NCBI GenBank assembly: GCA_963924555.1 | Contig: OZ004589.1 | Coordinates: 4,836,001 to 4,900,000, forward strand | From: Crambe crambe | Lineage: Eukaryota; Porifera; Demospongiae; Poecilosclerida; Crambeidae | Reading direction: 5' to 3' | Length of the DNA: 64,000 nucleotides | In this document: one piece after another, positions 1,143 through 58,505 of the stretch | Position numbering within the stretch: position 1 is the first letter of the stretch | Layout: each line of letters starts with the position of its first letter | Notes under the pieces: model-generated | What the model was told of the DNA's origin: nothing | Seen by the model: the letters and a program-made list of their open reading frames with translations, nothing else | Database searches by the model: none | Position numbers and translations under genes: made by a program

Positions 1143-4100
1143 TCACCGTGACCACTGGCACTGACTTCCTGTGTATCCAAACCTGCAGCGGCAACGGTAG
1201 CCAAATAAACTACTGGTGCATGTGCCCCCATTTCTGCACGGGTTAGGGAAACAACGATTCGAAGAGGTTCTGAGTTGGCACCGACTTCCTGTGTATCCAA
1301 GTCTACAACTGCATCTGTAGCTGGAGAAGAGACTTCTGCAAGTTCCTCCATTCAAGCACGGGTTAGGGAAACACCGACTCGAAGATGTTCTGATTTGGCA
1401 CCGACTTCCTGTGTATCCAAGTCTACAACTGCATCTGTAGCTGGAGAAGAGACTTCTGCAAGTCCCTCCATTCAAACACGGGTTAGGGGAACAGCGACTT
1501 GAGGATGTTCTGATCTGGCACCGACTTCCTGTGTATCCAAGTCTGCAACTGCATCTGTAGCTGGAGAAGAGACTTCTACAAGTTCCTCCATTCAAGCACG
1601 GGTTAGGGAAACAGCGACTCGAAGATGTTCTGATTTGGCACCGACTTCCTGTGTATCCAAGTCTGCAACTGCATCTGTAGCCGAATGAAAGACTAGTACA
1701 AGTCCCTCCATTCAAACACGGGTTAGGGGAACAGCGACTTCTGATTTGGCATCGACTTCCTGTGTATCCAAGTCTGCAACTGCATCTGTAGCTGGAGAAG
1801 AGACTTCTGCAAGTCCCTCCATTCAAACATGGATTGGGAAAACAGCGATTTGAGGATGTTCTGATTTGGCATCGACTTCCTGTGTATCCAAGTCTGCAAC
1901 TGCATCTGTAGCCGAATGAAAGACTAGTACAAATCCCTCCATTCAAGCATGGGTTAGGGAAACAGCGATTTGAGGATGTTCTGATTTGGCATCGACTTCC
2001 TGTGTATCCTAGTCTGCAACTGCATCTGTAGCTGGATGAAAGACTAGTACAAGTCCCTCCATTCAAGCATGGGTTAGGGGAACAGCGATTTGAAAATGCT
2101 ATTCTGGTTTGGCACCGACTTCCTGTGTATCCAAGTCTGCAACTGCATCTGTAGCTGGAGAAGAGACTTCTGCAAGTCCCTCCATTCAAGCATGGATTGG
2201 GAAAACAGCGATTTGAGGATGTTCTGATTTGGCATCGACTTCCTGTGTATCCAAGTCTGCAACTGCATCTGTAGGTGGAGAAGAGACTTCTGCAAGTCCC
2301 TCCATTCAAGCACGGGTTAGGGGAACAGCGACTTCTGATTTGGCATCGACTTCCTGTGTATCCTAGTCTGCAACTGCATCTGTAGCTGGATGAAAGACTA
2401 GTACAAGTCCCTCCATTCAAGCATGGGTTAGGGGAACAGCGATTTGAAAATGCTATTCTGGTTCGGCACCGACTTCCTGTGTATCCAAGTCTGCAACTGC
2501 ATCTGTAGCCGAATGAAAGACTAGTACAAGTCCCTCCATTCAAACACGGGTTAGGGGAACAGCGACTTCTGATTTGGCATCGACTTCCTGTGTATCCAAG
2601 TCTGCAACTGCATCTGTAGCTGGAGAAGAGACTTCTGCAAGTCCCTCCATTCAAGCATGGATTGGGAAAACAGCGATTTGAGGATGTTCTGATTTGGCAT
2701 CGACTTCCTGTGTATCCAAGTCTGCAACTGCATCTGTAGGTGGAGAAGAGACTTCTGCAAGTCCCTCCATTCAAGCACGGATTAGGGAAACAGCGATTTG
2801 AGGATGTTCTGATTTGGCATCGACTTCCTGTGTATCCTAGTCTGCAACTGCATCTGTAGCTGGAGAAGAGACTTCTGCAAGTCCCTCCATTCAAGCACGG
2901 ATTAGGGAAACAGCGATTTGAGGATGTTCTGATTTGGCATCGACTTCCTGTGTATCCTAGTCTGCAACTGCATCTGTAGCTGGATGAAAGACTAGTACAA
3001 GTCCCTCCATTCAAGCATGGGTTAGGGGAACAGCGATTTGAAAATGCTATTCTGGTTTGGCACCGACTTCCTGTGTATCCAAGTCTGCAACTGCATCTGT
3101 AGCCGAATGAAAGACTAGTACAAGTCCCTCCATTCAAACACGGGTTAGGGGAACAGCGACTTCTGATTTGGCATCGACTTCCTGTGTATCCAAGTCTGCA
3201 ACTGCATCTGTAGCTGGAGAAGAGACTTCTGCAAGTCCCTCCATTCAAGCATGGATTGGGAAAACAGCGATTTGAGGATGTTCTGATTTGGCATCGACTT
3301 CCTGTGTATCCAAGTCTGCAACTGCATCTGTAGCCGAATGAAAGACTAGTACAAGTCCCTCCATTCAAACACGGGTTAGGGGAACAGCGACTTCTGATTT
3401 GGCATCGACTTCCTGTGTATCCAAGTCTGCAACTGCATCTGTAGCTGGAGAAGAGACTTCTGCAAGTCCCTCCATTCAAGCATGGATTGGGAAAACAGCG
3501 ATTTGAGGATGTTCTGATTTGGCATCGACTTCCTGTGTATCCAAGTCTGCAACTGCATCTGTAGGTGGAGAAGAGACTTCTGCAAGTCCCTCCATTCAAG
3601 CACGGATTAGGGAAACAGCGATTTGAGGATGTTCTGATTTGGCATCGACTTCCTGTGTATCCTAGTCTGCAACTGCATCTGTAGGTGGAGAAGAGACTTC
3701 TGCAAGTCCCTCCATTCAAGCACGGATTAGGGAAACAGCGATTTGAGGATGTTCTGATTTGGCATCGACTTCCTGTGTATCCTAGTCTGCAACTGCATCT
3801 GTAGCTGGATGAAAGACTAGTACAAGTCCCTCCATTCAAGCATGGGTTAGGGGAACAGCGATTTGAAAATGCTATTCTGGTTTGGCACCGACTTCCTGTG
3901 TATCCAAGTCTGCAACTGCATCTGTAGCCGAATGAAAGACTAGTACAAGTCCCTCCATTCAAACACGGGTTAGGGGAACAGCGACTTCTGATTTGGCATC
4001 GACTTCCTGTGTATCCAAGTCTGCAACTGCATCTGTAGCTGGAGAAGAGACTTCTGCAAGTCCCTCCATTCAAGCATGGATTGGGAAAACAGCGATTTGA

Positions 4101-4800
4101 GGATGTTCTGATTTGGCATCGACTTCCTGTGTATCCAAGTCTGCAACTGCATCTGTAGCCGAATGAAAGACTAGTACAAATCCCTCCATTCAAGCACGGG
4201 TTAGGGGAACAGCGACTTCTGATTTGGCATCGACTTCCTGTGTATCCAAGTCTGCAACTGCATCTGTAGCTGGAGAAGAGACTTCTGCAAGTCCCTCCAT
4301 TCAAGCATGGATTGGGAAAACAGCGATTTGAGGATGTTCTGATTTGGCATCGACTTCCTGTGTATCCTAGTCTGCAACTGCATCTGTAGCTGGAGAAGAG
4401 ACTTCTGCAAGTCCCTCCATTCAAGCACGGATTAGGGAAACAGCGATTTGAGGATGTTCTGATTTGGCATCGACTTCCTGTGTATCCAGTCCTGCAACTG
4501 CATCTGTAGCCAGATGAAAGACTAGTACAAGTCCCTCCATTTAAGCACGGGTTAGTTGAACAGCGATTCAAGATTTGACACTGACTTCCTGTATATTCAT
4601 TTGTGCAGCTGCATCTGTAGCCATATGATAGCCCAGTACATGTGCCCCCATTTTGACATGGGTTAGGGAGACAACGATTGATTTGACACTGAGTTCCTGT
4701 GTATCCAATTGTGCAGCTGCATCTATATCCAGACAAAAGTCTGGTACAAGTTCCCCCATTCCTGCATGGGTTAGAGGTACATGTTTGATTACTGCTACAA
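1143..4800 (-). repeat. EGF-coding tandem array, 114-123 bp units in an 825-bp higher-order repeat
   Basis: About 31 consecutive EGF-coding units of about 118 bp lie in a single exon. Identical blocks recur at 825-bp spacing, equal to seven EGF units: the same sub-patterns start at 2551, 3376 and 4201, and at 3145 and 3970. Units fall into a few subtypes (RSLFSSY, RSLFSTY, TSLSFGY, TSLSSSY) whose order repeats with period seven. This looks like recent unequal crossing-over of seven-unit blocks. Confidence 0.9.
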
Positions 4801-6106
4801 CTGTAGAGACGATTTGCTTGTTGGACATCAATGTCACTGAGATGTACTCTTTGTCCAAGCTTTGGACGACGTTGTCTGTCGTACTCGGCTGTATTAGTAA
4901 CTTCTATAGTTGGTCTTCCATTTCTACTGAATGCATTTTTTGGGTAATGCATTATTGATCCATAATCGTACTTTGTTCCATGATAATTTACTTCACTTCG
5001 AGTACGAACTTGAAACTGTCGACCTCTTCCAAACAGAATATTGCTTTGATTGACTCTTATGTATGAGTTACGATCAGGTCTGGATTGTTCGTGCCAAAAT
5101 CCTACTGCATGGCCAATCTCATGCAATATAACACCATGTTTTATGCATCCTGGAGGCTGTAGATTAACAACTTGCTTTCCTCCTTTTCGGCCAATTGAAT
5201 CACTGTAGCACCCTCTACGATCAGATCTGAACTCTGTATAATCAGTTATGCTGCTTCTTGTCCGCAGTATGAACCTGAGGCATGTCCTTCTTGACCATTC
5301 TTGCATAGCTGTCCTGATTAAGTTGATTATAGTTCTATTTAGGCTACTATGAAGAGTGTAGTACATGATCCCATTGCTCCACAGTCGATTCCGATCTCGA
5401 ATTGCTGCTTTTTGAGCCAAGTCCTAATCATGATAATAAAAGACAGAATCAATAAGGACAGAATTATAATGACTATGTCATGCATTCTATTTGATAATGA
5501 TATTCACGTATCCATAGCTACAAGCTAGCTGAAAAAGAATATCCAAATGTAGTGTTTTAAAGTTCTATTCTAGGAATCATTTTGATCTAGAGGTGATAAG
5601 GTTATATCTAATAATGTTCATGTATTTTTGCTAAAATTTTATTTTCTGTTTATTGAAAGAATTTTTCAACATCAAACTTTCCTGTCTCGTGATAGGCTGA
5701 ATGTGCCTGTTAGAAACTTGACCACAGCATATCAATGCAAGTTATTTGTAATCAATGCAAAATAAAGAAGTATGAATATCATTAAAATTTAATGATTATG
5801 TATGACATTAATTAGCAAGTGATCAAAGATAGTGGTGAGCTAATAGGGATACACCAAATCTCAATATATTCTTACCATTGTATCAGTAGATTCATTGCTG
5901 TAATAGGCTTGTATGAGCTCTTCACTTATGTCCAGATCACCTTCAAAGTAGTCCTGTTCCTCCAGCGTATTAAGCGACGTATTTTGACTGTTCGATGTGC
6001 TTGTGGTCTCCGTCTCTGTTCCATTACTATCTGGAATCGTAGGAGTAGGTATACTTGTAACCATCTGACAGGTCACAAGTATCACTAAAAGTATGAGATG
6101 TCTCAT
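1143..6106 (-). CDS. AST1: secreted astacin metalloprotease with about 31 EGF-like repeats
   Basis: Two coding exons, 6106-5876 and 5423-1143, with a GT-AG phase-0 intron; 1503 residues predicted. The start at 6106 was chosen because it heads the signal peptide (LILLVILVTCQMVTS) and lies about 85 bp below a TATA box. Exon 1 encodes a Ser/Thr-rich propeptide with FEGD (residues 54-57), the family's aspartate switch that occupies the catalytic zinc. Exon 2 holds the astacin domain (about 79-285), with zinc motif HEIGHAVGFWHE (178-189) and Met-turn SIMHY (233-237), so it should be an active secreted endopeptidase. From about 290 to the end run about 31 six-cysteine EGF repeats (CxPNPCLNGGTC...GYRCSC..GYTGS.C), nearly identical in DNA and with no introns. 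There is no C2 domain, unlike AST2 and AST4. The substrate is unknown; matrix processing is only inferred. The exact repeat number could be affected by assembly. Confidence 0.9.
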
Positions 6107-6191
6107 TTTGTTCGAATCTTCAATTCCGTATATACACGAACTAGTGAAATAGTGTCGTAATGCCACTAAGTAAACTAATGCTCAGTGATCT

Positions 6192-6239
6192 TTTTTATAT
6201 GCAGCCTGTGCTAGTTATTCACAGTTTAAATTGATGTCA
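6192..6239 (-). promoter_or_regulatory. AST1 core promoter: TATA box plus TGATGTCA element
   Basis: On the minus strand TATAAAAA occupies 6199-6192. The CRE/ATF-like octamer (TGATGTCA on the plus strand) is at 6232-6239, with 32 bp between the two. The flanking sequence is almost identical to the AST4 promoter near 31,277-31,340. Confidence 0.7.
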
Positions 6240-6420: not shown

Positions 6421-6867
6421 TAACCAGGTCATCCAAGTAACCCAACAGCACTGCACTTCCTCTTCTCCTTTGACCTTTGCACTTAATTATTCATTGAAAA
6501 AAATTAATGAGGTTGATTAAATTCACAGGGTGTGTAATGGGAAAGTATCTGGGGGACTATTGAGGCCACTTACCTTTGCTTGAGTTTGGCATCAACTGAT
6601 GTATTCTGTAATAATTTATTTAAATCAACACAGCTATGAGCACTGTTTTGTGTATCAGATTATCATAGATTGCATAGACTATGTAACTGGGATTGGAAAT
6701 GCCCCATCTGCACCTTCTTATTCTCTGCCCGAACTATGAGTGAAGATGTTGAAGCCTCCCTCTCAGTCGATCATCCCTGAGGAATATAATATAAATAACT
6801 CGGCAAGCCATGCACTGCAATGGTTGCACATTGATACCCAAATTTGATATAATTGTCTTTTTTTATA

Positions 6868-6925
6868 GCAGTCCTATAGCTGGATAAAAGACTCCTCCAA
6901 GTCCCTCCATGTAGAATTGTATTGA
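6868..6925 (-). pseudogene. Relic of one EGF-coding unit
   Basis: The stretch reading TAGCTGGATAAAAGACT followed by AAGTCCCTCCAT closely matches the repeat-unit segment of AST1 (TAGCTGGATGAAAGACT...AAGTCCCTCCATTC) but is isolated and lacks the rest of a module. Probably debris of an earlier EGF gene or a recombination by-product. Confidence 0.4.
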
Positions 6926-8311: not shown

Positions 8312-11300
8312 TCAAAGTTGGCAATGAGTTCCCTTATTCCCTATTCTGCAGATACATACGTAATAGCTGGATGAAAGACTAATACACCGCCCACCATTGT
8401 GACACGGGTTGGGGGAACAGAGATTGGGTTGAGTTTGGCACCGACTGCCCTCGTATCCAGTCCTGCAGTTGCATCTGTAGCCAGATGAACGATGAACACA
8501 TGAACCCCCATTCAAGCATGGGTTAGGGGAACAACGATCTTGTATCTGACACCGACTTCCTGTGTATCCAGTACTGCAGTTGCATCCGTAACCCGAGGAA
8601 AGACCAATACACAAACCCCCATTCAAGCATGGGTTAGGGGAACAACGATCTATCTGACACCAATATCCTGCAAATCCAGTACTGCAGTTGCATCTAAAAC
8701 CAGAAGAATTACCAGCACATGAACCCCCGTTCAAGCACGGGTTAGGATAACAATAATAATGTATCTGACACCGATATCCTGTGTATTCAGCACTGCAGTT
8801 GCATCTATAACCAAAATAAAGACCAACGCATGAACCCCCGTTCAAGCACGGGTTGGGAGAACAATGATCTATCTGACACTGACTTCCTGTGTATCCCATT
8901 TTGCATTGACATCTGTAACCATATGAAGAATTAGTACATGAGCCTCCATTCAAACATGGATTTACTGAACAGGCCCAGTTGCATATGTAGCCAGTCAAAA
9001 GACCAATACATGTGCTCCCGTTCAAGCACGTGTTATTAGAACAATGATCTATCTGACACTGACTTCCTGAGTATCCAAGTTTGCATCGACATATGTAACC
9101 AGATGAAGAATTAGCACACAAGCCTCCATTCAAACATGGATTTACTGAACAGGCCCAGAATTGGCACAGATTTCCTTCATATCCAGTAGGGCAGTTGCAT
9201 ATGTAGCCAGATGAATAACCAATACATGTGCCCCCATTCAAGCACGGGTTTATGGAACAGCGATCTATCTGACACTGACTTCCTACGTATCCAGACATGC
9301 AGTTGCATCTGTAACCAGTTGAGGTATTGGTACACGAACCCCCATTCAAGCATGGATTAGGGAAACAGGTTTTGAATTGGCACTGGCTTCCAGTATATCC
9401 AGTCCTGCACCTGCATAGGAAGCCAGATGAAGAATGATTGGTACATGAGCCTCCATTCAAGCACGGGTTGGGATCACAATCTTGCTCCAGGTTGATGTCA
9501 AAGTTTAAGGATGTGAAGCAGCCAATGTTATCACAGTGTTTATACATTCTTTTCCCACTGTGGATGGAGAATGTTTGTGGATCAGTTAGTGCTTCATTGT
9601 TAGTCGCATTTACTTCGAATTTCCAGATACTAACTTCCACGTTTTGCCATGCTCTTTCACCAAAACTCAGAGTTTGGTTCCAGTAAGTTCTATTCTCACT
9701 GCTGCTTATAGGAACAGGTTGTGTCTGCTGGGTGAGCTTGTAGTTGGTATCATCCCTTGCAGTCATCCTAACATACGTGTCAGAGTCATCATCAAATATA
9801 CCAAGAGCATCTTTTACATGCACTGTTAAAACTCCATGTAAACCTGATCCTGGGCAGTTGTAAAGTCGGTTCACTTGTTGGATATCGCTAGCACTCAGAC
9901 TCAAACGCTGTCCAAGTATTGGTCGACCTTGTTTCCTGTACTCGTCAATATTATTGACAATAATCGTTGGTCTAATATAAATAGAGAAAGCAAAGCGTCC
10001 ATAATGCATAATTGATCCATAATCATAAGTCGATCCTTGATTATCCATTACGTGTGAATTTCGCTTCATGAAGTTCCTACCAAGAAATTCATAAAATACA
10101 ATGTTTGTAGTATTAATAGTCACAAACTGGTCGCGATCAGGCCTTGATTGTTCATGCCAAAACCCTATAGCATGGTAGATCTCATGCAAGATAACGCCAT
10201 GTGTGACACATGTTGGATCTTGTAGATTTATAGTTGTAATGCGACTATCAATACTGCGACCGACTGAAGTGCTATAACACCCTCCTCTATCAGCGGAAAA
10301 TTCAATGTGATCTACTTCAGTTGAATTGATCATCCGAAATCTTAAGCAGGTGACTTTGCTCAACTCTTGCATAGCTCTCTTGATCCTTTCTCCAGCTGTT
10401 TTACTTATGCTTGAGTGAAAGGTATAGTTCACTATTCCGTTGGTCCACAGACGATCCTCTTGTCGTCGAATGGCTGCTCTTCTAACCCGTTTCTATATGT
10501 AAAATTAATAATGAAACCAATGTTTATAATTATACACAGTGGAACCCCTAAATGTGGACTCCCTGAAAAGCAAAAACCTCTCTAATCAGGACATTTTTTC
10601 TTATCCCAACACAATATAAATGTGTATAATTTAACCCCTGAAATAAGGACACCTCTCTAATCAGGACACTTTTCGCTGGTCCCAAAGGTGTCCGCATTTA
10701 GAGGTTCCACTATAACTACTTTTACAATGTGAGTCCATCAAACGATTATGAACAATGACCTATTTTTCTTGCCAGCTATGAATCTAAACAAGAGAATTAG
10801 CTTTCAACAACATCATCCAAATAGTGAAATAAAGCAATCTCAACAAAAATTAAAGAGTAATGATGCAAGTGAATAATACATAATTATACTAATATATGAA
10901 GTGCTCCCAATACTGAGTAAAGGATTATGTGTCACTAATAAATTGATTTCACTACTTGGTTGGTTTTTTGTTTGTTTTTGTTTGTTTGTTTGTTTTTTGT
11001 TGTTGTTGTCGTTGTTTTTTCAGATCCTCCCCGGGCTCATGCTCAACTTTAGCCTTCCTGGTTTTCTTGAAATACACTGTTGTTGGCTTCTTCAAAAACT
11101 CTGTACCATTTATTATGCCTGCTCTTTTATAGACTATCTTTATTGCTTTTTGACCACCTCTGGGTCAACCAAAAGGTGGTGTTTTAATGGAGGTGATCTA
11201 TTTACAGAGGTCAAAATCAAAGGTACAAGTCTATTGGGACATAAAGTGGTCTGAATAGGGTGGTCTCTTAATACAGGTTTGACTCTACTAGCCTATAAAA

Positions 11301-13169
11301 ATGACTCCTATATTATATTGATTTCTGCACATGTGTTGGATATTACTAGGGCAATGTTCAACATTCAGTTGACAGCGAGCGAGCAAGCAAGTATTCTTTA
11401 GTGCTACAACTCTTTAGAAGATTTTGCTGTTTAGTTTATATGTATCAGATAAGCTACAACTACTACTTTAGTGAGTAAGTGAGCATGATAGGCTCCAGTG
11501 CTTGATATTATGTCAGAGACAAGAAGTCATGTAAGTGGTGGTTCCAACCAGAAAGCTCCATGCATTAAAAGCTGTTAATACTTACCACAAGCACTTAGAT
11601 ATAAGCCAAGCACAATTCACTTTGATAAGCCTAGCGCCTCTATGACAAAAGGCTGTAGAAAACAATCTAGCTTGCATATTGAGTACAATTATTGGAGCAC
11701 ACACGCACAGCCGCTACTATACACGGACAACCATATGTATGCCTGGGGGATTTTGGAGTGTAGACCTAGATATACAAGTGAGAGTAAAAACATTTCTTCT
11801 AAATGAAAGAGTGATGTAGGCTTGAGTACATGACTATAAAAAGTACGGAAACAAGGTGCTGGCTATGTACTGACCCTACATCGCTGCATGGACTGCTCTG
11901 CTAACTGTCATAAAATTGACATAAACCCTACATTGTTGCTGCCATACTATCCTTTTTGGCTACACCTTGCAGCAATGTAGGGTTTATGTCAATTTTATGA
12001 CAGTTAGCAGAGCAGTCCATGCAGCGATGTAGGGTCAGTACATAGCCAGCACCTTGTTTCCGTACTTTTTATAGTCATGTACTCAAGCCTACATCACTCT
12101 TTCATTTAGAAGAAATGTTTTTACTCTCACTTGTTTGCACACTTTTTCAAGGGGCGTGGCTAAAGATGTCAAGAACGACCCTTTACCAAATAATCTTACC
12201 ACGCCCACCGCAACTCAGCAAGACAGTTTTTTTAGATTCTACGAAGCATTCTAGCGTTCTAAATGTTGTCTACGTAGCGTCTATGAAGTGTATAAACTAA
12301 CTTTGCTGTCTACGAAGCATTCGAGAATTTGAGTCGTCCACGAAGGCACTCAAACGGCAATTGACAGTTAGGACTTGAGCTTTACTTCAATTTGAACGAT
12401 ACCATTCCTTAGATCAGGTGTAGAGCTTCAAGATGGTACCAAGATCGTAGATATAGGATGAAGCAGTCGGGAGTTATGGCTGTCAAGCGTCCACGAAGGC
12501 ATGCGAACGGCAATTGACAGTTAGGACTTGAGCTTTGCATCAATTTGAACAAGACCATTCCTTAAATCAGGTGTAGAGCTTCAATATGGTACCAAGATCG
12601 TAGATATAGGATGAAGCAGTCGGGAGTTATGGCTGTCAAGAAGAAGATTATTATCTTATTATTATTATTATTAATGAGCGTGGGCGTTTTGCGTGTCAAG
12701 CCTACATAGAGAGTGCTACCGCACTCTCATATATATATATTTTTTATAATTTCAATGAGTCATGACCTGAGAGTCAGCTCGCTTGCTCGCTGCAATGAAT
12801 TGTTTAATGTCAAAATGGACCAATAGGATTGAAGGAATCCACATACATAATTATAGTAATAATAATAATTACCTCATTTCCAGATGAATCATTGCCGTAG
12901 TAAGCTTGTATCAATTCTTCGCTAATGGCTAAGTCGCCTTCAAAGTAGTCTTGACGTTCTAATATGTTGAGTGGAAGGTTCTCGCCAGTTGACCAGTTGC
13001 TGTCGTCCAGTTCCTTTTCCTTTTCCATCTCGGGAGTAGAAGGAGCTGAGGTGCTCATAACTATCTCTGTTTCACGTTCCTTTGAAACTGTTGTAACTGG
13101 AACACTTGTAACCATCTGGCAGCTTACCAATGTCACCAACATCATGGAGAAGATAAACTGGGGATCCAT
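8312..13169 (-). CDS. AST2: secreted astacin - C2 - EGF protease
   Basis: Two coding exons, 13169-12873 and 10492-8312, phase-0 intron; 825 residues predicted. The ATG at 13169 lies about 110 bp below TATAAAAA and heads a hydrophobic signal (FSMMLVTLVSCQMVTS). The propeptide carries FEGD (residues 76-79). Exon 2 opens with KRVRR before AAI, a plausible furin-type cleavage site placing the mature N-terminus at AAI as in other astacins. The protease domain has HEIYHAIGFWHE (202-213) and SIMHY (259-263). A C2-type domain follows (about 317-435: GVLTVHVKDALG, DDDSDTY, WNQTLSF) with N-glycosylation sequons. About 11 EGF repeats then run to the C-terminus; the fifth is cut short (reads ICNW directly into the next module). 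The 2.4-kb intron is largely transposon sequence. The role is probably extracellular matrix or pericellular proteolysis, with the C2 and EGF parts as binding modules; this is inferred. Confidence 0.88.
10538..10711. mobile_element. MITE with CAGTGGAACC-type terminal inverted repeats
   Basis: A 174-bp element in the AST2 intron. It begins AGTGGAACCCCTAAATG and ends CATTTAGAGGTTCCACT, flanked by TA-rich sequence, as expected of Tc1/mariner-pogo derived MITEs. Related fragments occur at 57,859-58,045 and 62,458-62,640. It is non-coding. Confidence 0.75.
11150..11290. repeat. Dispersed repeat ending GGTGGTCTCTTAAT
   Basis: Contains CCAAAAGGTGGT, GGTCAAAATCAAAGGTACAAG and GGGTGGTCTCTTAAT. The same words in the same order occur at 22,355-22,450, so this is a dispersed element. 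No coding potential is seen. Confidence 0.5.
11774..12728. mobile_element. Fold-back transposon, filled site
   Basis: The first part is a large palindrome: arms 11774-11942 and 11969-12134 are near-perfect reverse complements around a 26-bp loop. Then follow two tandem copies of a roughly 156-bp unit (about 12,330-12,486 and 12,487-12,641). The element ends in a perfect hairpin GAGAGTGC-TACC-GCACTCTC at 12709-12728. It is inserted into an (AT)n site that is unoccupied in the 28.3-kb paralogous repeat. A relative is at about 25,468-26,117. It encodes no protein, so it is non-autonomous. The terminal hairpin recalls rolling-circle elements, but no CTRR end is present. Confidence 0.75.
12330..12641. 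repeat. Tandem duplication of a 156-bp unit
   Basis: Two adjacent copies share CGTCCACGAAGGCA, CGGCAATTGACAGTTAGGAC, GGTACCAAGATCGTAGATA and CAGTCGGGAGTTATGGCTG with a few differences. They lie inside the fold-back element. Confidence 0.85.
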
Positions 13170-13277: not shown

Positions 13278-13319
13278 TTTTTATACCCTCTCTGAGTAGA
13301 TATTGCTCGTATGATGTCA
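13278..13319 (-). promoter_or_regulatory. AST2 core promoter: TATA box plus TGATGTCA
   Basis: TATAAAAA on the minus strand at 13285-13278, with TGATGTCA at 13312-13319, 26 bp upstream. This is the same arrangement as AST1 and AST4, and it supports translation starting at 13169 rather than at any upstream codon. Confidence 0.7.
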
Positions 13320-15324: not shown

Positions 15325-16305
15325 TCACACTGCAAACCTGCGAGTTTGACATCGACTTCCTGTATATCCAATCCTGCAACTGCAGCTGAAACCTGATGAA
15401 AGACTAGTACAAGTCCCTCCATTCAAGCATGGATCAGGGGAACAGCGATCCGAAGTTGTCGTGAGTTGGCACCGACTTCCTATGAATCCAATCTTGCAAC
15501 TGCAGCTGTAACCGGATGAAAGACTAGTACAAGTACCTCCATTCAAGCATGGGTTAGGGGAACAGCGATCCAAAGTTGTCATGAGCTGGCACCGACTTCC
15601 TGTGAATCCAATTCCACAGCTGCAGCTGTAGCCTGATGAAAGACTATCGCAAATCCCCCCATTCAAGCATGGGTTGGGGAAACAGTGATTCGAAGTTGTC
15701 GTGAGTTGGCACTGACTTCCTGTGAATCCAATTCCACAGCTGCAGCTGTAGCCTGATGAAAGACTATTACAAATTCCCCCGTTCAAGCATGGGTTGGGGA
15801 AACACTGGTTTGAATTTATCATGAGTTGGCACTGACTTCCTATGAATCCAATCCTGCAACTGCAGCTGTAACCTGATGAAAGACTAGTACAAGTCCCTCC
15901 ATTCAAACATGGGTTAGGGAAGCAGCGATTCAAAGTTGTCGTGAGTTGGCACTGACTTCCTGTGTATCCAGTTGTGCAGCTGCAGCTGTAGCTGGATGAA
16001 CGACTATTGCAAGTCCCCCCATTCAAGCACGGGTTAGGGGAACACAGATTTTTTCCTGAAGCAGTACTTGTGGTTACTTCTGTGTTATCCTTCTTTTCCG
16101 AAATATCAGGAGCTTGTGGAATCGAAGCACTCACAGCCTTTTCCTCCAAAGTCTCAGGATGCTGTGGAATCGAAGTACTTGTAGACACCTCTACTTCATT
16201 CTTCTCTGAAAATGCAGAAGTAGAAGGAACTGAATAACTAGTAACCATCTGGCAGGTTACCAACACTGTGAGTAGAATGAAACAGTGACCCATTTTTGGT
16301 GCCAT
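15325..16305 (-). CDS. EGF1: secreted protein with six EGF-like repeats
   Basis: Single coding exon, 326 residues from the ATG at 16305; an upstream in-frame ATG at 16401 lies at or above the expected transcription start given the TATA box at 16415-16408. The signal peptide (CFILLTVLVTCQMVTS) is clearly related to those of AST1 and AST4. A Ser/Thr/Glu-rich linker with repeated SIPQxPE-type words follows, then six EGF modules (CxPNPCLNGGTC...GYSCSC..GFTGSQCQL) joined by TTTxN linkers. There is no protease or C2 domain and no membrane segment, so it is probably a secreted adhesion or matrix protein; partner unknown. The paralogue at 24.2-24.9 kb is broken. Confidence 0.85.
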   Translation of the reverse strand: MAPKMGHCFILLTVLVTCQMVTSYSVPSTSAFSEKNEVEVSTSTSIPQHPETLEEKAVSASIPQAPDISEKKDNTEVTTSTASGKNLCSPNPCLNGGTCNSRSSSYSCSCTTGYTGSQCQLTTTLNRCFPNPCLNGGTCTSLSSGYSCSCRIGFIGSQCQLMINSNQCFPNPCLNGGICNSLSSGYSCSCGIGFTGSQCQLTTTSNHCFPNPCLNGGICDSLSSGYSCSCGIGFTGSRCQLMTTLDRCSPNPCLNGGTCTSLSSGYSCSCKIGFIGSRCQLTTTSDRCSPDPCLNGGTCTSLSSGFSCSCRIGYTGSRCQTRRFAV

Positions 16306-16407: not shown

Positions 16408-16415
16408 CTTTTATA
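16408..16415 (-). promoter_or_regulatory. EGF1 TATA box
   Basis: TATAAAAG on the minus strand, about 103 bp above the chosen start codon. No TGATGTCA lies next to it, unlike the AST promoters. Confidence 0.65.
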
Positions 16416-19891: not shown

Positions 19892-22886
19892 TCAAAGTTG
19901 ACAACGAGTTCCCCTATTGCCTTTTCTGCAGATACAAAAATAATAGCTGGATGAAAGATTAATGCACCGCCCTCCGTTATAACAAGGGTTGGGGGAACAG
20001 AGATTGGGTTGAGTTTGGCACCGACTGCCCTCGTATCCAGTCCTGCAGTTGCATCTGTAGCCAGATGAAAGGCTAATACACCTTCCCTCGTTCTGACATG
20101 GGTTGGGGGAACAGAGATTGGGTTGGGTTTGGCATTGCTTTCCTGTGAATCCAGTCCTGCAGTTGCATCTGTAGTCAGAAGGACTACTGCTACACCACCC
20201 CCCGTTCTGACATGGGTTGGGGGAACAGAGATTATGTCGGGTTTGGCACTGCTTTCCTGTGTATCCAGTCCTGCAGTTGCATCTGTAGTCAGAAGAGAGA
20301 CTAATACATGAACCCCCATTCATGCACGGGTTAGGGGAACAACGATCTCGTATCTGACACTGACTTCCTCTGTATCCAGTACTGCAGGTGCATTTGTAGC
20401 CGGATGAAAGACCAATACATGAACCCTCATTCAAGCACGGGTTAGGGGAACAACGATCTATCTGACACTGACTTCCTGTGTATCCAGCACTGCAGTTGCA
20501 TCTATAACCAAAAGAAAGACCAATGCATGAACCCCCATTCAAGCACGGGTTAGGAGAACAATGATCTATCTGACACCAACTTCCTGTGTATCCAATTTTG
20601 CATTCACATGTATAGCCAGATGAAGAATTAGTACACGAGCCTCCATTCAAACATGGATTTACTGAACAGGCCCAAAATTGGCACAGATTTCCTTCGTATC
20701 CAGTAGGGCAGTTGCATTTGTAGTCAGTCAAAAGACCAATACATGTGCCCCCGTTCAAGCACGGGTTTATGGAACAGCGATCTATCTGACACTGACTTCC
20801 TACGTATCCAGGCATGCAGTTGCATCTGTAGCCAGTTGAGGTATCAGTACATGAGCCTCTATTCAAACATGGATTAGGGAGACAGGTTTTGAATTGGCAC
20901 TGATTTCCAGTGTATCCGGTCCTGCACCTGCATAGGAAGCCAGATGAAGAATGGTTGGTACATGAGCCTCCATTCAAGCACGGGTTGGGATCACAATCTT
21001 GCTCCAGATTGATGTTAAAGTTTAAGGATGTGAAGCAGCCAATGTTATCACAGTGTTTATACATTCTTTTCCCACTGTGGATGGAGAATGTTTGTGGATC
21101 AGTTAGTGTTTCATTGTTAGTCGCATTTACTTTGAATTTTCGGATACTAACTTCCACGTTTTGCCATGCTCTTTCACTAAAACTCAGAGTTTGGTTCCAG
21201 TAAGTTCTATTCTCACTGCTGCTTATAGGAACAGGTTGTGTCTGCTGGGTGAGCTTGTAGTTAGTATCATCTCTTGCAGTCACTCGAATATACGTGTCAG
21301 AGTCGTTGTCAGATATACCAAGAGCATCGTTTATATGCACTGTTAAAACTCCATGTAAACCAGATTCTGGGCAGTTATAAAGTCGGTTCACTTGTTGGAT
21401 ATCGCCAACACTCAGACTCAAACGCTGTCCAAGCATTGGTTGACCTTATTTGATGTATTCGTCAATATTATTGACAATAATCGTTGGTCTATTATTATTA
21501 TTGATAGAGAAAGCAAAGCGTCTGTAATGCATAATTGATCCATAATCATAAATCGATCCTTGATTATCTGTTATGTGTGAATTTCGCTTCATGAATTGCC
21601 TGCCAAAAAATTCATAAGACACAATATTTGTAGTATTAATAGTCACAAACTGGTCGCGATCAGGCCTTGATTGTTCATGTCAGAACCCTATAGCATGGTA
21701 GATCTCATGCAAGATAATACCATGTGTGACACATGTTGGATCTTTTAGATTTATGAATACAATGTGACTGCGACCGACTGAAGTGCTATAGCACCCAAAT
21801 CCATCAGTGTGAAATTCAATGCGATCTACTTCAGTTGAATTGATCATCTGAAATCATAAGCAGGTGATTTCACTCAACTCTTTCATGGCTCTTTTGATCC
21901 TTTCTCCAGCTGTTTTACTTATGCTTGAGTGAAAGGTATAGTTCACTATTCCGTTGGTCCAGAGATGATCCTCTTGACGTCGAATGGCTGCCCTTCTAAC
22001 TCGTTTCTATATTTTGCACAAGTAATCAATTTATTAAAATCCTTTACTCATTATTGAGAGCATATATACATTATTATAGAAGTGTATTATGTAACACTGA
22101 TTTTTTTCTATCAAATAATTGGGTAGTTGAAGACTTTAGTAACTAACTCTCTTAGTATTTTATATGGACTATCTTTATTGCTTAGCAATGTGGTCTCATT
22201 AACTTCAGAAACTTATGCCTAAACTATAAAAACAAAATGATGTGCAAAAACAACCCATTTTTAGGATATCTGAGTTCCAATTTGCAACTCAGAAAACCTA
22301 AAAAGGGATTGTTTTTACAGTGAATATAGTACAATGAAACCTGTTTATAGTGAGTCACCAAAAGGTGGTAGGTGGTCAGGTCAAAATTAATGGTACAAGC
22401 ACTATTGAGACATAACCAAGTGGACTCTGAACAGGGTGGTCTCTTAATTGACTGCCTCAGTCATCCTTGAAAATGGTTAGTACATGTAGGCATTATTGAT
22501 TTCCACAAAATCATGTATAGAAGGCATTGAATACCCAATATCAATGGACCGATAGGATTGCAGGAATCTACATACATAATTATAATGAGAATAATTACCT
22601 CATTTCCAGATGAATCATCGCCATAGTAAGCTTGTATCAGCTCTTTGCTAATGGCTAAGTCACCTTCAAAGTAGCCTTGATTTTCTATGTTTTCATCAGT
22701 TGACCAGTTGCTGTCCTCCAGTTCCTTTTCCTTTTCCTTCAACATCTCAGGAGTAGATGGAGCTGAGGTGCTCATAACCATCTCTGTTTCACGTTCCTTT
22801 GAAACTGTTGTAACTGGAACACTTATAACCATCTGATAGTTTACCAATGTTGCCAACATCATAGAGAAGATAAACTGGGGATCTAT
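19892..22886 (-). pseudogene. AST3-psi: decayed astacin - C2 - EGF gene
   Basis: Collinear with AST2: exon 1 22886-22599, exon 2 22006-19892, same splice sites and furin-like RVRR. Breaks: the ATG aligned to the AST2 start reads ATA (22886-22884), and the protease domain has in-frame stops at 21856-21854 (TGA for Arg), 21682-21680 (TGA for Trp inside HEIYHAIGFWHE) and 21448-21446 (TAA for Gln). The upstream TATA box is missing. About ten residues near SVGRS are deleted. Downstream, a 514-codon frame (21436-19892) covering the end of the astacin domain, the C2 domain and about ten EGF repeats is open. A protein from an internal start would lack a signal peptide. I treat it as a pseudogene; read-through or an alternative promoter for the C2-EGF part is possible. 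Confidence 0.85.
22320..22450. repeat. Second copy of GGTGGTCTCTTAAT dispersed repeat
   Basis: AACCTGTTTATAGTGAGTC, CAAAAGGTGGT, GGTCAAAATTAATGGTACAAG and GGGTGGTCTCTTAAT parallel the repeat at 11,150-11,290. Confidence 0.5.
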
Positions 22887-24201: not shown

Positions 24202-24943
24202 TCACATTGCAAATGTGTGAGTTTCACACAAGCTTCCTGTGAATCCAATCCTGCAACTGCAGCTGTAACCTGATGAAAGATTAGTACAAGTCCCTCCATT
24301 CAAGCACGGGTTAGGGGAACAGCAGATCCAAAGTTGTGAGTTGGCACTGACTTCCTGTGAATCCAATCCTGCAACTGAAGCTGTAACCTGATAAAGACTT
24401 GTACAGGTTCCTCCATTCAAGCACAAGTTAGGGAAACAGCGACTTGAAGTTGCCATGAGTTGGCACCGACTTCCTGTGAATCGAATCCTGCAACTGCAGC
24501 TGTAACCTGATGAAAGACTTAACTCTACAGGTCCCTCCATTCAAGCACGGGTTAGGGGAACAGTGATCCAAAATTGTCATGAGTTGGCACCAACTTCCAA
24601 TGTATTCAGTTGGTAGCTGTAGCTGTGTTGCAAATCCTCCCATTCAAGCGGAAACAACAGATTTCCCCCTGAGATTTCAGGAACTAAAGCGGTACTTGTA
24701 GTCACCTCTGTTTTATTCTTCTCTGAATTATCAAGAACTTGTGGAATCGAAGCACTCAGCCATCTTTTTAGCCACCTCTATTTAGACCTTTTCCTCGGAA
24801 AGTTGTGGAATCGAAGGACTTGTAGACACCTCTACTTCATTCTCCGAAATTACAGAACCAGAAGGAACTGAATAACTATTAAATATCCAGCAGGTTACCA
24901 GCACCATAAGTAGAATGAAATGGTGACCCATTTTTGATTCCAT
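24202..24943 (-). pseudogene. EGF2-psi: decayed copy of EGF1
   Basis: The 5' part (ATG at 24943 or 24931) retains the signal peptide region (HFILLMVLVTCWIFNS) and the linker up to a stop at 24784-24782. EGF-coding modules continue below 24,643 but are spread over more than one frame: cysteine patterns CSPNPCLNGGTC and GYSCSCRIGFTGS occur in frames starting at 24643 and 24540. Small deletions break several modules. No TATA box equivalent to that of EGF1 is seen. Position and order relative to AST3-psi mirror EGF1 relative to AST2. Confidence 0.8.
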
Positions 24944-26274
24944 GTATTTGAGTCTGGTTCTAAACTGCATATCGTTGCTGGACTAATAGTATCTGAGAAG
25001 TACCCCTGAGGGCTATCACAATCATGTAGGGATTTTTTCCCACTTCTCTCGTAATCAATCATATTATTGATGGATAACTAAACTAGGTCAGTTATGTGTG
25101 TGTGCCTGTATTAACTCATTAATAGTACTAAGAGCTATAGTTATTGTTGCTGTACGCAGTCATAGTTATGCACTATGGTATATAGTGTGATTTGTACTAC
25201 AAACACTGGCAGAGTATGGCAAGTTGCAATACAGGACTCTTGTGTGAATGGCTGTATAAATGAGGTAATTGTCACTAAATGTGCACAGAGACTCCAATCT
25301 TATTCCAAGGTCTTCTGCCACTCAACCAATTCCAAGTTGGATCCTATGGTATGGGTTCAATTGCTACCACTTTTATGTAAGGGTTGCTCCTACTACCTAG
25401 CCAACCATCTCCATCTGGTACTTTTCAAGCATATCTTGCTTGCATGCTCAAAATCATCTTCCCATGCAAAATTATGCTAAATAAAAGGGTTAGTCTGTAC
25501 TTTTACCTATAGCAGTTTCTGTGAACAAACATCAAAAAATTTCAATAATAATCCCTACATCGCTGCCTCCCACTAAGCTGCTTTAATTGTTCATGTCAGT
25601 GTAAAAAAAATTCAGTTTGGTTTAGGCAGTGATGTAGGGATTATTATTGACGGTAGCATAATTTTCGTGTTTGTTCACAGAAACTGCTATAGGTAAAAGT
25701 ACAGACTAACCCTACATGGCCTTTTTATTTAGCATAATTTTTTTTCCTTTCACTTGTTTATTTACTTTTATATGACCTCATTTTTTATTCAGCTAGCTAG
25801 AGTACGCGCATACATTGCATGTAATCATGACAGATGCTCACGCATGACAAATGACGTCATTAATTTCAAAATGGCTGACATAGTATCGTTTGTAATGAAA
25901 AGTCGTTCGATATGACCGATTATTTTGGAGGAAAACTGTATGTATAATGATGGTAAAAGCACATTGTGTGATTATAACTGCACAAGTTGATATGAATTTG
26001 ATTGTTGTATGTGAAAGGATTATGGAGTTACAGCCGTCAAAGAAGATGAATCTGATGATGATGATGAGCCACGCCCATTCCGTACTAACCCTACATAGAG
26101 AGTGCTACTGCACTCTCTGATTACAATAAAGGTGGTTATATGAACTCAGTGTTTTATAATGTATTATACACTTATATTCTAATGGTTAGTAGCAGCTAAA
26201 ACAATGGCCACATGTATAAAAAAAGAGTATGACACCTGTGTTGTTCTTAATGATCTAAGAAGAAATAAGATGTT
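24944..26274. other. EGF2-psi - EC1 spacer
   Basis: No gene supported. Most of 25,468-26,117 is a fold-back element; the rest is AT-rich sequence without recognisable coding signal. Confidence 0.5.
25468..26117. mobile_element. Second fold-back element
   Basis: It begins with a large palindrome (about 25,468-25,741; arms share AAAATTATGCTAAATAAAA and ACCTATAGCAGTTTCTGTGA around a central loop). Its 3' part matches the 11.8-kb element (GGAGTTACAGCCGTCAA, CACGCCCATTCCG, CCTACATAGAGAGTGCTAC). It ends in the same perfect hairpin GAGAGTGC-TACT-GCACTCTC at 26098-26117. Non-coding. Confidence 0.7.
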
Positions 26275-26937
26275 TTAGTTAGGAAAGTATATTCTGTAGT
26301 GGGCTTCAGCTCTATTTCTGCCACCAATACGACGTGAACGATATCCACGGACATAATTAACACCATTAAAAATGTCTGTATAAGTGAGGCGATCAGGAGC
26401 ATTATTATCACTGTCGTATACTGTGGCTTCAACTTTGTACCAGGCTCTCCTGCCACTGAACCACAACATCTGATTCCACCGAGGGTTGAGATTACCTCGT
26501 ATGTAACGTGACCTATGTGTTTCCCTGTATCCAGAGATATCAGTAGCTGTAACCTCCATGTAGGGATCACTTAGGTCCAACCAACCATCTGTGTCGGGTA
26601 GATAGTGACCGCTTTGTGCCAGGACACTCAAAACCCCTCTCTTATACTGACAGTTAGTTCCTGTGTAGCTATTTCGACAGCTGCAGTACCTTCTAAAGTG
26701 GCAAGTACCACCATTTCTGCAACTACTGCATCGTGATGATGTGCACTTAGCCTCCAGTGTAAGATTCGTTTGAGGAATGGATGTGACTGCAGTAGTTAAC
26801 TCCAGTGATTGATTCATTTGAGGAGTAGATGTGACTGCAGTAGTTGCCTCCAATGTTTGAGGAGTGGATGTGACTGCAGTAATCGTGGCCATCTGGGAAA
26901 TTGTAAATACCAAGAAGATGATGAAAAAGCGAGCCAT
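26275..26937 (-). CDS. EC1: secreted EGF - C2 protein without protease domain
   Basis: Single exon, 220 residues, ATG about 65 bp below a TATA box (27009-27002). An N-terminal hydrophobic signal (FFIIFLVFTISQMA) is followed by three imperfect repeats of TTAVTSTPQ-type sequence, one EGF-like module (CTSSRCSSCRNGGTCHF...), and a C2-type domain of about 120 residues (GVLSVLAQSGHYLPDTDGW, LSDPYMEV, NPRWNQMLWFSG, VYDSD). The C2 part is close to that of AST4. Aspartates expected for calcium binding (LPDTDG, SDPY, YDSDN) are present. With no HExxH domain it cannot be a protease; it may bind the same membrane or matrix target as AST4. Function is inferred only. Confidence 0.85.
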   Translation of the reverse strand: MARFFIIFLVFTISQMATITAVTSTPQTLEATTAVTSTPQMNQSLELTTAVTSIPQTNLTLEAKCTSSRCSSCRNGGTCHFRRYCSCRNSYTGTNCQYKRGVLSVLAQSGHYLPDTDGWLDLSDPYMEVTATDISGYRETHRSRYIRGNLNPRWNQMLWFSGRRAWYKVEATVYDSDNNAPDRLTYTDIFNGVNYVRGYRSRRIGGRNRAEAHYRIYFPN

Positions 26938-27001
26938 TTCGTGTCTGTATTTTCTTGTAGTCGTTATCCTTCAATCTCTACTCTGTATGAGAGTTGTTCT
27001 T

Positions 27002-27009
27002 CTTTTATA
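27002..27009 (-). promoter_or_regulatory. EC1 TATA box
   Basis: TATAAAAG on the minus strand, about 65 bp above the start codon. Confidence 0.6.
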
Positions 27010-27068
27010 CTGCATTGCCTTTTCCAATAAACATGTGAATAGTTTTGTACTATGTAACAATAATGTGT

Positions 27069-28405: not shown

Positions 28406-28559
28406 GGTCTCTGTTAACAAGTCAAGTTCCTTTGACCTTTTGATCATGAATACAGATGAGTTTGAGTGGAAAGTTAGCAGAAAGCAGTCCTTTTTTTTTT
28501 TTTCTTGGTGTAACCTAAATCACTTCTAGAATGTTCTTCTTCTTTATTGATAGCTACAT

Positions 28560-28773
28560 ATGATCACAGTTTATAGAGACTCAATGTTTTACAGTGTATC
28601 ATACAAATCAACTATTAGTAGTTAGTAGTGCTAAAACAATGACTACATGTATAAAAAAGAGTATGACACCTGTCAATCTAGATGTTTTAGTTTAGGAAAG
28701 CATATTATGTAGTGGGCTTCAGCTCTATTTCTGCCACTGATACGATGTGAACAAGATCCACGGACATAATTAA
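28560..28773 (-). pseudogene. EC1-like 3' fragment
   Basis: Minus-strand sequence encodes HVNYVRGSCSHRISGRNR and AEAHY, matching the EC1 C-terminus (GVNYVRGYRSRRIGGRNR, AEAHYRIYFPN). The downstream flank (ACATGTATAAAAAAGAGTATGACACC) also matches the EC1 3' flank. Upstream the coding sequence stops abruptly at a (CCCT)n tract (28,782-28,828). Only the end of the C2 domain remains. Confidence 0.8.
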
Positions 28774-28834
28774 CATGGATCTCTCTCCCTCCTTCCCTCC
28801 CTCCCTCCCTCCCTCCCTCCCTCCCTCCCCAAAT

Positions 28835-29480
28835 GCAGCTCTGCCATAACAATCTTAGCCTCCCTGAAAAGTACATCATGGGATAATTGTAACTTTACTG
28901 GAGAAAAGATATCAGTATTCAGTGTTCTCCCTAAATATTAATGAAGGGATAGGGGTGGTTTCACACATCAAAGGGTACTTGTGGTTAAGTGCATTCTATG
29001 GGCCCCTATGCTTAAGGTATGCTGAGGATAACACTGGTATTGTTAGTTCCTGTCTATGTAGGACGAGCCTATAGCTTGTAGCCTACTCACTGATCTCAGT
29101 CAGTGGCCCTATTAAGAGTTCTCCTATTAGTTGGCCTTGCACGTTCGTGATTATTTCACAAGCTTCCAGGTGGGAAGTGCATTATATAATATGGAAGTTA
29201 AAGATAATTATTCATGATTGTAATGAATCAAATTAAAGAGTTTATTCATAGTTTGGAGTCAGTGGTATCTATTATAGGATGGCTACCTCCAACGATGTCC
29301 TCTAGATATTGGCTCATTTATAGCACAGCAGGTAATGGAATTTGAAAATCTTTCGCTAAAGCGAAACAGTCTATGCTAAGGCTCTAGGGCTACAAAAAGA
29401 ATACTGTTGATATTGATTACTGACAAACGTGGCCTTGGTGCAGAGCGTAGTGTCACTGCAAACTATAGATCGAGTACAGT
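28835..29480. repeat. Left copy of a segmental duplication
   Basis: An uninterrupted run of about 640 bp whose pieces recur in order at about 32,080-32,096, 32,908-33,110, 33,753-33,968 and 36,685-36,930. Shared words include GGGATAATTGTAACTTTACT, CCTATGCTTAAGGTATGCTG, TAGGACGAGCCTATAGCTTG and CTAAGGCTCTAGGGCTACAA. The continuity here shows what the right copy looked like before three insertions. Confidence 0.8.
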
Positions 29481-29692
29481 GCATTGAAGTACATTGTACA
29501 TTGAATTTTTGGTCCTTTCTTGTGTTTTTGCTTATTTTTCTTGAACTACAGGTTCAACTATAACTATGACTATAACTGAGATACACAAATTGACTATTAA
29601 TGGTTAGTAGCAGCTGCTAAAACAATGACTACTTGACTACTTGTATAGTTCTTAATGATCTAAAAGGAAAAGATATAAGTTTTTTTATTTTT

Positions 29693-31197
29693 TTAAGCAG
29701 CAAAGTATATTGTATAATAGGCACGACCACGGGTTGTACCACGAACACTAGCTGAGCGAGATCCACGGATGTTATTAACTCCAGTGTGAACAGCTGTAAC
29801 AGTGAGGCGATCATCAGAACCAATATCACTGTCGTATACTGTGACTTCAACTCTGTACCATGGTCTCCTGCCACTAAACCACAGCCTCTGGTTCCACCTG
29901 GGACTTTGATTACCTTGTATGTAACGTGATCTGCGTGTCTCCCTGAATCCAAGGATGTCGGTGGCGACAACCTGCATGTAAGGGTCACTCCTACCAGCAA
30001 GCCAGCCATCTTCGTCAGGTAGATTGTTAGCATGACTTGCTTGAACACTCAAGTAGCCTATCCTATTACTGCTACTGCTACAACTGTAGAGACGATTTGC
30101 TTGTTGGACATCTATGTCACTGAGCTGTACTCTTTGTCCAAGCATGGGACGACGTTGTCTGTCGTACTCGGCTGTATTAGTAACTTCTATAGTTGGTCTT
30201 CGATTTCTACTGAATGCGTCACTTGGGTAATGCATTATCGATCCATAATCGTACCTTGTTCCATAGTAATTGACTTCACTTCGAGTGCGAACTCGGAACT
30301 GTCCTCTTCTTTCAGGCTCAATATTGTTTTCATTGACTCTTATGTACGAGTTACGATCAGGTCTGGATTGTTCGTGCCAAAACCCCACTGCATGGCCAAT
30401 CTCATGCACTATGGTACCATGGTTTATGCATCTTGGAGGCTGTAGATTAATAACTTGCCTTCCTCCTTTTCGACCAACTGAATTACTATTACATCCCATA
30501 CCATCAGATCTGAACTCTGTATAATCAGTTATGCTGCTTCTTGTCCGCAGTATGAACCTGAGGCATGTCCTTCTTGACCATTCTTGCATAGCTGTCCTGA
30601 TTCTGTTGATTGTTGTTTGGGTTAGGCTGTTATGAAGAGTGTAGTACATGACTCCATTGCTCCACAGTCGATTCCGATCTCGAATTGCTGCCTTTTGAGC
30701 CAAGTCCTATTCACATAATAGATGTACCATAATTATACATGTATATTTGCACATAATATGAGTTAGTTTTTAAACAGAATGTAATTTTTTAAGCATCAGA
30801 CTGCCCCAGATAGCCAGTTAGCAGTTTATACTTCAGCATATCGTATAATTTATGTATGATAAACAACAAATCAATAACTTGTAAGTTTTTTGATGTGAAT
30901 TCTTACTCTTTGGGGCATACTATAGTAGACAAGCACATGGAAATCAGAAAAATGTGTTCTTACCATTGTGTCAGTGGAGTCATTGCTGTAATAGGCTTGT
31001 ATGAGCTCTTCACTGATGTCCAAATCACCTTCAAAGTAGTCCTGTTCCTCCAGCATATTAGACGTCATATTTTGATTGTTTGATGTGCTTGTGGTCTTCG
31101 TCTCAGTTCCATTAATATCTGGAATCATAGGAGCAGGTATACTTGTAACCATCTGACAGGTCACAAGTATCACTAAAAGTATGAGATGTCCACTCAT
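29693..31197 (-). CDS. AST4: secreted astacin - C2 metalloprotease
   Basis: Two coding exons, 31197-30964 and 30706-29693, phase-0 intron of 257 bp; 415 residues. The start at 31197 lies about 80 bp below TATAAAAA. Signal peptide HLILLVILVTCQMVTS, propeptide with FEGD aspartate switch, and mature N-terminus probably near AAI (QKAAI; no RxxR site, unlike AST2). Astacin domain with HEIGHAVGFWHE (179-190) and SIMHYPSDAFS, ending DIDVQQANRLYSC. A C-terminal C2-type domain (about 293-415: IGYLSVQASHANNLPDEDGW, RSDPYMQV, SPRWNQRLWFSG, VYDSDIGSDDRL) closely matches EC1. No EGF modules. The astacin part is nearly identical to AST1, so AST1 and AST4 share a recent protease ancestor but carry different C-terminal modules. 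Confidence 0.92.
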
Positions 31198-31276
31198 TTT
31201 GTTAACTGAATCCAATCTTCAATTCTCTAGTGAAATAGTGTTGTAATGCCACTAGGTAAATAGTGCTCAGCGATCT

Positions 31277-31324
31277 TTTTTATATGCAGCCTGCGCTTGT
31301 TATTCACAGTTTAAATTGATGTCA
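31277..31324 (-). promoter_or_regulatory. AST4 core promoter: TATA box plus TGATGTCA
   Basis: TATAAAAA at 31284-31277 on the minus strand and TGATGTCA at 31317-31324, 32 bp apart as in AST1. The intervening GTTATTCACAGTTTAAATTG is identical in the two genes. Confidence 0.7.
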
Positions 31325-31646
31325 TGAGCATGTTTACAGATAATGGTTATTCGATAACAAGTTGACAGGATACACGTTTAGCTGCCAACTTGAACTTTTT
31401 CAAGAGAAGTAATATGAAAAAATGATAGGAGGAAAGTCACAAAGTGCAAATGCATTCATCTGTACAGAGAGAGATTTTTGAACTTGAGTGCATGTCCTCT
31501 TCTCCTTTGGCCTATGCACTTAATTATTCATTGTATGAAAGAATGAATTCGATTAAATTCATGGGATGTGTAATGGAAAGTGTCTGATTGACTACTTCAA
31601 CAACATGTAAGGTCAATTAAATACGTAAGTAGCTCCTATCCTTCGT

Positions 31647-31656
31647 CGACATGTTG
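31647..31656. promoter_or_regulatory. Near-palindrome CGACATGTTG upstream of AST4
   Basis: One mismatch from the CAACATGTTG palindrome found upstream of AST1, EGF1 and EC1, in a block homologous to the EC1 upstream region. Confidence 0.35.

Positions 31657-43554: not shown

Positions 43555-58505
<14,951 letters not shown>

Follow-up and report, generated by a model that had tools for sequence, protein, structure and literature searches.

In the sponge Crambe crambe, the window studied here (64,000 nucleotides, C12:4836001-4900000, of a 143.1-Mb genome in 119 contigs) holds a cluster of genes for secreted proteins built from astacin protease, C2, and EGF modules. We consider that this cluster arose by duplication and module loss from one composite secreted protease with the order astacin-C2a-EGF-C2b, a history to which we assign a probability of roughly 60%; as far as sequence comparison can tell, the cluster would be mostly the local breakup of an uncommon type of astacin. 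It extends from window position 1143 to about 31300, on the minus strand throughout, and comprises three intact astacin genes (AST1, AST2, and AST4), one dead astacin gene (AST3), one EGF-only gene (EGF6), and one EGF+C2 gene: six gene units plus three fragments, where the initial annotation had eight genes or remnants. Its description of a clustered secreted family with related leaders on one strand is borne out in coordinates, strand, and module content by Pfam and leader comparison.

A composite paralogue and its relatives

Searches of the genome with the C2 domains of AST4 (C2b) and AST2 (C2a) gave at least seven and at least eight matches, respectively, all at family members or fragments. 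A single gene matches both queries: COMP (C12:4540782-4542272), 295 kb away on the same contig, whose second exon encodes astacin-C2a-EGF-C2b. Elsewhere, the C5 paralogue (C5:2581204-2582727) encodes astacin-C2a-EGF, and the C10a and C10b genes encode astacin-C2. Inspection by eye shows local damage in C10b, where the start of the astacin exon is altered, and in C5, where the last EGF is cut short. A long transposase-like open frame (L017:1146-3515; also by eye) lies between exons 1 and 2 of C10b.

The C10a C2 domain retrieved 15 proteins from 5.8 billion. Seven (P0006-P0012) align to COMP across all four modules, three of them being incomplete at one or both ends. P0013 and P0015 are astacin-C2 proteins, and the C2 domain of P0004 shows 99% identity to that of C10a. 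P0003, P0005, P0014, and P0016 are possible fragments, whereas P0017 combines a leader-like start with EGF and C2 and lacks astacin. The same kind of search with COMP C2b found only two proteins, a 98% match of COMP (P0001) and an unrelated three-C2 protein (P0002). With the EGF+C2 gene it found five: the gene itself (P0018), an 84% identical protein (P0019), and three C2-EGF-C2 proteins without an astacin domain (P0020, P0021, and P0022), with a leader-like start in P0020 and none in P0022. These database relatives are single open frames, for which upstream exons could be missed. The protease-free P0017 and P0020 fit the idea of noncatalytic partners, at the level of architecture and with no function implied.

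Since all modules occur together in one exon of COMP and in seven database proteins, loss of parts explains most members. The ancestor would have carried a signal peptide, FEGD prosegment, astacin, C2a, EGF, and C2b, and would have been copied in tandem, with parts lost differently in each copy; we infer the order of losses. AST2, AST3, and C5 would have dropped C2b and multiplied EGF, and AST4 would have dropped C2a and EGF. AST1 would have kept an AST4-type 5′ half and gained an end of EGF amplified to 31, while the EGF+C2 and EGF-only genes would have lost the protease.

The trees of the modules are compatible with this history. In the astacin tree the C10 pair falls outside, and AST1+AST4 (97/95) stand against COMP,(C5,(AST2,AST3)), with COMP's place at 89/91. 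A preset check of whether module trees agree could be applied to one split, COMP versus C5+AST2+AST3, which appears in both the astacin (98/99) and C2a (96/92) trees. Comparable trees are thus without conflict, but with one comparable split the test is weak.

Several observations weigh against the proposed history. The C10 genes, which form the outgroup, and P0013 and P0015 have astacin-C2 only, and the composite could therefore have formed later by fusion. The database relatives are counted as proteins and not as species. The C2a tree leaves the order of C5, AST2, and AST3 open, and the C2b tree is without resolution of AST4, EGF+C2, and COMP. Modelled alone, C2a gave a predicted local distance difference test score (pLDDT) of 51, and the structure match of the COMP model barely covers it. 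EGF6 has EGF units nearer those of AST1 and a promoter nearer that of AST2, a hint of chimerism. Finally, AST1 and AST4 combine a recent 5′ split with unrelated C-termini and 3′ flanks, which is exchange and not plain loss.

Gene units and their domains

In the order of transcription, the 5′ part of the cluster consists of AST4 (astacin+C2b), a C2b fragment, the EGF+C2b gene, a second C2b fragment, and an EGF-only pseudogene (the EGF remnant), and the 3′ part of AST3 (astacin+C2a+EGF), EGF6, AST2 (astacin+C2a+10 EGF), and AST1 (astacin+31 EGF):

31278..31284, minus strand: AST4 TATA box (-87)
30964..31197, minus strand: AST4 exon 1, signal peptide and prosegment (YFEGDLDIS); donor GTAAGA, then a 257-bp intron
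29693..30706, minus strand: AST4 exon 2, astacin domain and C2b (Pfam Astacin 6e-59, C2 1e-9)
28691..28879, minus strand: C2b fragment, C-terminal part (tblastn E 1e-8)
27003..27009, minus strand: EGF+C2 gene TATA box (-72)
26275..26937, minus strand: EGF+C2 gene, signal peptide, Ser/Thr-rich repeats, one EGF, C2b (Pfam C2 4e-9)
25196..25454, minus strand: C2b pseudogene fragment with stops
24214..24943, minus strand: EGF-only pseudogene, broken frames; 77-83% DNA identity to the EGF-only gene in long matches
22599..22886, minus strand: AST3 pseudogene exon 1, ATA instead of ATG
19892..22006, minus strand: AST3 pseudogene exon 2, astacin with three stops, then C2a and 10 EGF
16409..16415, minus strand: EGF6 TATA box (-110)
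15325..16305, minus strand: EGF6, signal peptide, Ser/Thr-rich linker, six EGF; single exon
13279..13285, minus strand: AST2 TATA box (-116)
12873..13169, minus strand: AST2 exon 1, signal peptide and prosegment (YFEGDLAIS); donor GTAATT
8312..10492, minus strand: AST2 exon 2, astacin, C2a with most of its calcium site lost, 10 EGF
6193..6199, minus strand: AST1 TATA box (-93)
5876..6106, minus strand: AST1 exon 1, signal peptide and prosegment; donor GTAAGA, then a 452-bp intron
1143..5423, minus strand: AST1 exon 2, astacin and 31 EGF (Pfam)

In the protease genes, exon 1 encodes the signal peptide and a prosegment with YFEGDL, and after one intron (257 bp in AST4, 452 bp in AST1, and about 2.4 kb in AST2) one large exon encodes the rest. 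Both protease-free genes have one exon each, as would result from one deletion that began in exon 1 and ended in exon 2. Over about 60 residues, the leader and linker of EGF6 are 44-46% identical to the aligned AST2 prosegment, so EGF6 looks like a protease gene that lost a stretch running from exon 1 into the EGF array; its EGF units average 81% identity to those of AST1 and 72% to those of AST2. The EGF+C2 gene starts at 26937, and its EGF was judged by eye and tblastn. The fragment at 28691..28879 also resembles this gene in its 3′ flank (blastn).

Signal peptides were called by eye, without a predictor. The leader core LVTCQMVTS, said earlier to recur near-identically or as a clear variant in five units, does so: AST1, AST4, and the EGF-only gene carry it unchanged, AST2 has one mismatch, and AST3 has three. 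The remnant at 24943 reads LVTCWIFNS there, and the leader of the EGF+C2 gene is only loosely similar. Exon 1 of AST1, AST2, AST4, C5, COMP, C10a, and C10b contains FEGDL, with L for the I of FXGDI, the prosegment motif given as common to animal astacins in the accessible text of PMC9848320.

All four of AST1, AST2, AST4, and COMP, together with C5, C10a, and C10b, have HExxHxxGxxHE and a SIMHY-type Met-turn (S-I/V-MHY allowed). AST1, AST2, and AST4 score 193, 169, and 199 bits against Pfam Astacin (cut-off 22.5) and are by these motifs and scores predicted astacin (M12A) proteases. Pfam also detects C2 in AST4 and the EGF+C2 gene, and EGF stretches in AST1 (31), AST2 (10), the EGF-only gene (six), and AST3 (10). 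The EGF array of AST1 (1236-4568) is a tandem repeat of 120/231 bp in about 28 units, and its 31 EGFs fall into 12 protein types in irregular order, so that EGF copy number may differ between individuals.

The pairs EGF6-AST2 and EGF remnant-AST3 form a duplicated block (77-84% DNA identity in long matches). AST3 is dead as a protease, given its ATA start and three stops in the astacin domain, although the zinc motif and Met-turn are both kept. A 517-codon open frame (19892-21445) behind the last astacin stop contains C2a and the 10 EGFs. Ratios of nonsynonymous to synonymous substitution (dN/dS, NG86) between AST3 and AST2, counted over few sites after removal of stop-bearing codons, are 0.29 in exon 1, 0.48 in astacin, 0.36 in C2a, 0.19 in EGF1-4, and 0.24 in the last EGFs. 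Selection on AST3 behind its stops would be a suggestive reading, but we set it aside because the number of sites is too small.

The two C2 domains differ in how they were recognized. C2b has both a Pfam C2 match above cut-off and a C2 fold. C2a of AST2 and AST3 has no Pfam C2 match at E 0.01 and was identified by homology, being 53% identical to COMP C2a and also similar to database proteins; COMP C2a aligns with canonical C2 domains, and P0006 has two C2 stretches. We aligned 13 C2 domains (eight from database proteins or C10a, and five from COMP, AST4, EGF+C2, and AST2) and scored seven aspartates in loops 1 and 3, which we take, by comparison with other C2 domains, to bind calcium. The set is complete in 10 of 13, including AST4 C2b (7/7), while the EGF+C2 gene has six, COMP C2a four, and AST2 C2a three. 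Both database C2a domains examined (P0006 and P0011) keep all seven, so the C2a calcium site was probably lost on this lineage. A model of COMP (mean pLDDT 75.3) matches crayfish astacin, and its C2b matches the C2 domains of cPLA2 and perforin; in the model this likeness is one of fold, from which shared function does not follow.

Promoters were compared over the last 150 bp before the start in eight regions (AST1, AST2, AST3, AST4, EGF6, the EGF remnant, EGF+C2, and C5; 28 pairs, 200 dinucleotide shuffles). Similarity is strong for AST1/AST4 (z = 39.8), AST2/AST3 (33.7), AST3/C5 (15.5), and AST2/C5 (13.6) and weaker for AST2/EGF6 (7.1) and AST3/AST4 (4.3), and the other 22 pairs have z < 4. 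The upstream regions therefore form two or more groups that share a TATA box, and the single common promoter proposed in the initial annotation reduces to strong similarity within AST1/AST4 and within AST2/AST3/C5. One TATAAA lies between -54 and -132 in nine of 11 upstream regions (AST1, AST2, AST4, EGF6, EGF+C2, C5, COMP, C10a, and C10b), and none was found upstream of the other two, AST3 and the EGF remnant. Within a preset stretch from -130 to -60, TATAAAA occurs in six of nine, with a chance of 0.4-2.7% per gene.

Around the cluster, a further short EGF-like tblastn match lies upstream of AST1 (6861-6923), and two dispersed short repeats (81-83% identical) flank AST4 on either side (28867-29046/32903-33113 and 29043-29236/33755-33964). 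The left flank has receptor-like open frames, judged by eye. Further right is a filamin gene (43546-58502, plus strand) with a calponin-homology exon (43546-43878), a single open frame of 1485 residues and 15 filamin repeats (50400-54854, plus strand), and an additional filamin-like exon (58134-58502; by eye). A sulfotransferase-family open frame (55758-57164, minus strand) lies on the opposite strand between filamin exons and is possibly intron-nested. A perfect (TC)n tract of 133 copies occupies 48249-48515. Elsewhere in the genome, two cathepsin L genes, translated to look for silicatein, both carry the active-site Cys.

Loss, decay, and exchange

It is possible, though we hold it improbable, that the cluster is mostly decay: three working proteases (AST1, AST2, and AST4) among relics, with the EGF-only and EGF+C2 genes functionless. 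As history this is compatible with module loss, and AST3, the EGF remnant, and the two C2b fragments are indeed dead or partial. However, the EGF-only and EGF+C2 frames are open, each with a start, leader, and TATA box; dN/dS between the C2b domains of AST4 and the EGF+C2 gene is about 0.37 (0.273/0.746); and the astacin-free P0017 and P0020, with leader-like N-termini, exist elsewhere.

Somewhat more doubtful is active shuffling, in which recombination among tandem same-strand genes would repeatedly join leaders to new C-terminal modules and so generate a repertoire of proteases and binders. The comparison of AST1 with AST4 speaks for it. The two match in 5′ flank, promoter, exon 1, and astacin domain, with exons about 90% identical, synonymous divergence (dS) of 0.19 and 0.14 in the 5′ halves, and 5′ flanks that align to about -453 in AST1 in two pieces (92% and 81%). 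The similarity stops where the astacin domain ends (4790/30073), beyond which none was found in the C-terminal halves or 3′ flanks. C2b and the 3′ flank of AST4 resemble instead those of the EGF+C2 gene (C2b dS 0.75). We regard this pattern as a clear exchange: one of the two C-termini appears to have been swapped or replaced once the 5′ halves had separated, and that of AST1 is likelier the replaced one because C2b also ends the C10 genes and COMP. The astacin domains, initially described as almost identical, are close (85% protein and 90% DNA identity), and the accompanying claim of differing C-termini holds.

Gene conversion limited to the exons of AST1 and AST4 is not claimed. The introns align poorly beside the 90% identical exons (score 29, reached by 1/100 shuffles), which would favor it, but the alignment of the 5′ flanks out to about -453 speaks against it, and an identical-run test gives P = 0.0009 at all sites and only 0.096 at third positions.

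A second point for shuffling is the AST2-like promoter of EGF6 with its AST1-like EGFs. We demoted this from a module conflict to a hint, since an unrooted tree with only three leader clades cannot show conflict. Against shuffling, the modules are already joined in COMP and the seven database proteins, the astacin and C2a trees are without conflict, and there is one clear exchange only. Of the shuffling first proposed, the AST1/AST4 exchange therefore stands and free shuffling behind one leader mostly does not. That all units are parts of a single large gene with alternative splicing and alternative first exons is very improbable: the units share a strand and similar leaders, but a separate predicted TATA box, start codon, leader, and stop belong to each of AST1, AST2, AST4, EGF-only, and EGF+C2, in keeping with the earlier view of them as separate genes.

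A C2-bearing astacin type

Astacins form a large animal protease family that has been catalogued thoroughly, and few secreted C2 domains are known. Compared with the astacins of MEROPS M12A (crayfish astacin, BMP1/tolloid, and meprins), this family has C2 where those have CUB, MAM, or TRAF, none of which appeared in Pfam scans of eight cluster frames. EGF-bearing tolloid-type astacins likewise combine astacin with EGF, and differ from the scanned frames in having CUB. PLAT-type domains are lipid-binding. One of these, PS50095, is the nearest entry in the accessory-domain list in the accessible text of PMC9848320, which does not include C2. The same text gives up to six EGF copies in astacins, compared with 31 in AST1. 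Literature searches on astacin with C2 domain or sponges found no astacin-C2 proteins in the records covered.

Searched against the PDB, the C2 profile has synaptotagmin, PKC, and NEDD4 among its top sequence matches (E 1e-13 to 1e-10). Their C2 domains work inside cells, unlike those here, which follow a signal peptide. Perforin (MACPF-EGF-C2) is not among the best 60 of the 111 PDB sequence matches. Its likeness is at the level of the C2 fold only, with a protease here in place of MACPF, which was not found in the scanned cluster frames and proteins. Among MACPF proteins, C2 is described as unique to perforin in the accessible text of PMC3477005.

From this architecture we infer calcium-dependent docking of a secreted zymogen. 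The enzyme would be held inactive by the FEGD prosegment and docked by C2b, in a calcium-dependent manner, on a lipid or other surface; the EGF arrays would serve as spacers or adhesive arms, and the protease-free members would take the same sites. A more specific and decidedly speculative proposal is a surface-attack system in which perforin-like calcium-dependent C2 arms carry the astacin zymogen to foreign or dying-cell membranes, with the EGF+C2 and EGF-only siblings, which lack the protease, serving as adhesins or competitive caps. If so, the dosage of protease and decoy would evolve together through module loss from one ancestor.

The C2-bearing astacins form an unusual subfamily outside the domain list in the accessible text of PMC9848320, seen in database proteins as well as in this sponge. 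With the whole composite paralogue on the same contig, the cluster would be a clear case of a multidomain protease split into enzyme and nonenzyme genes.

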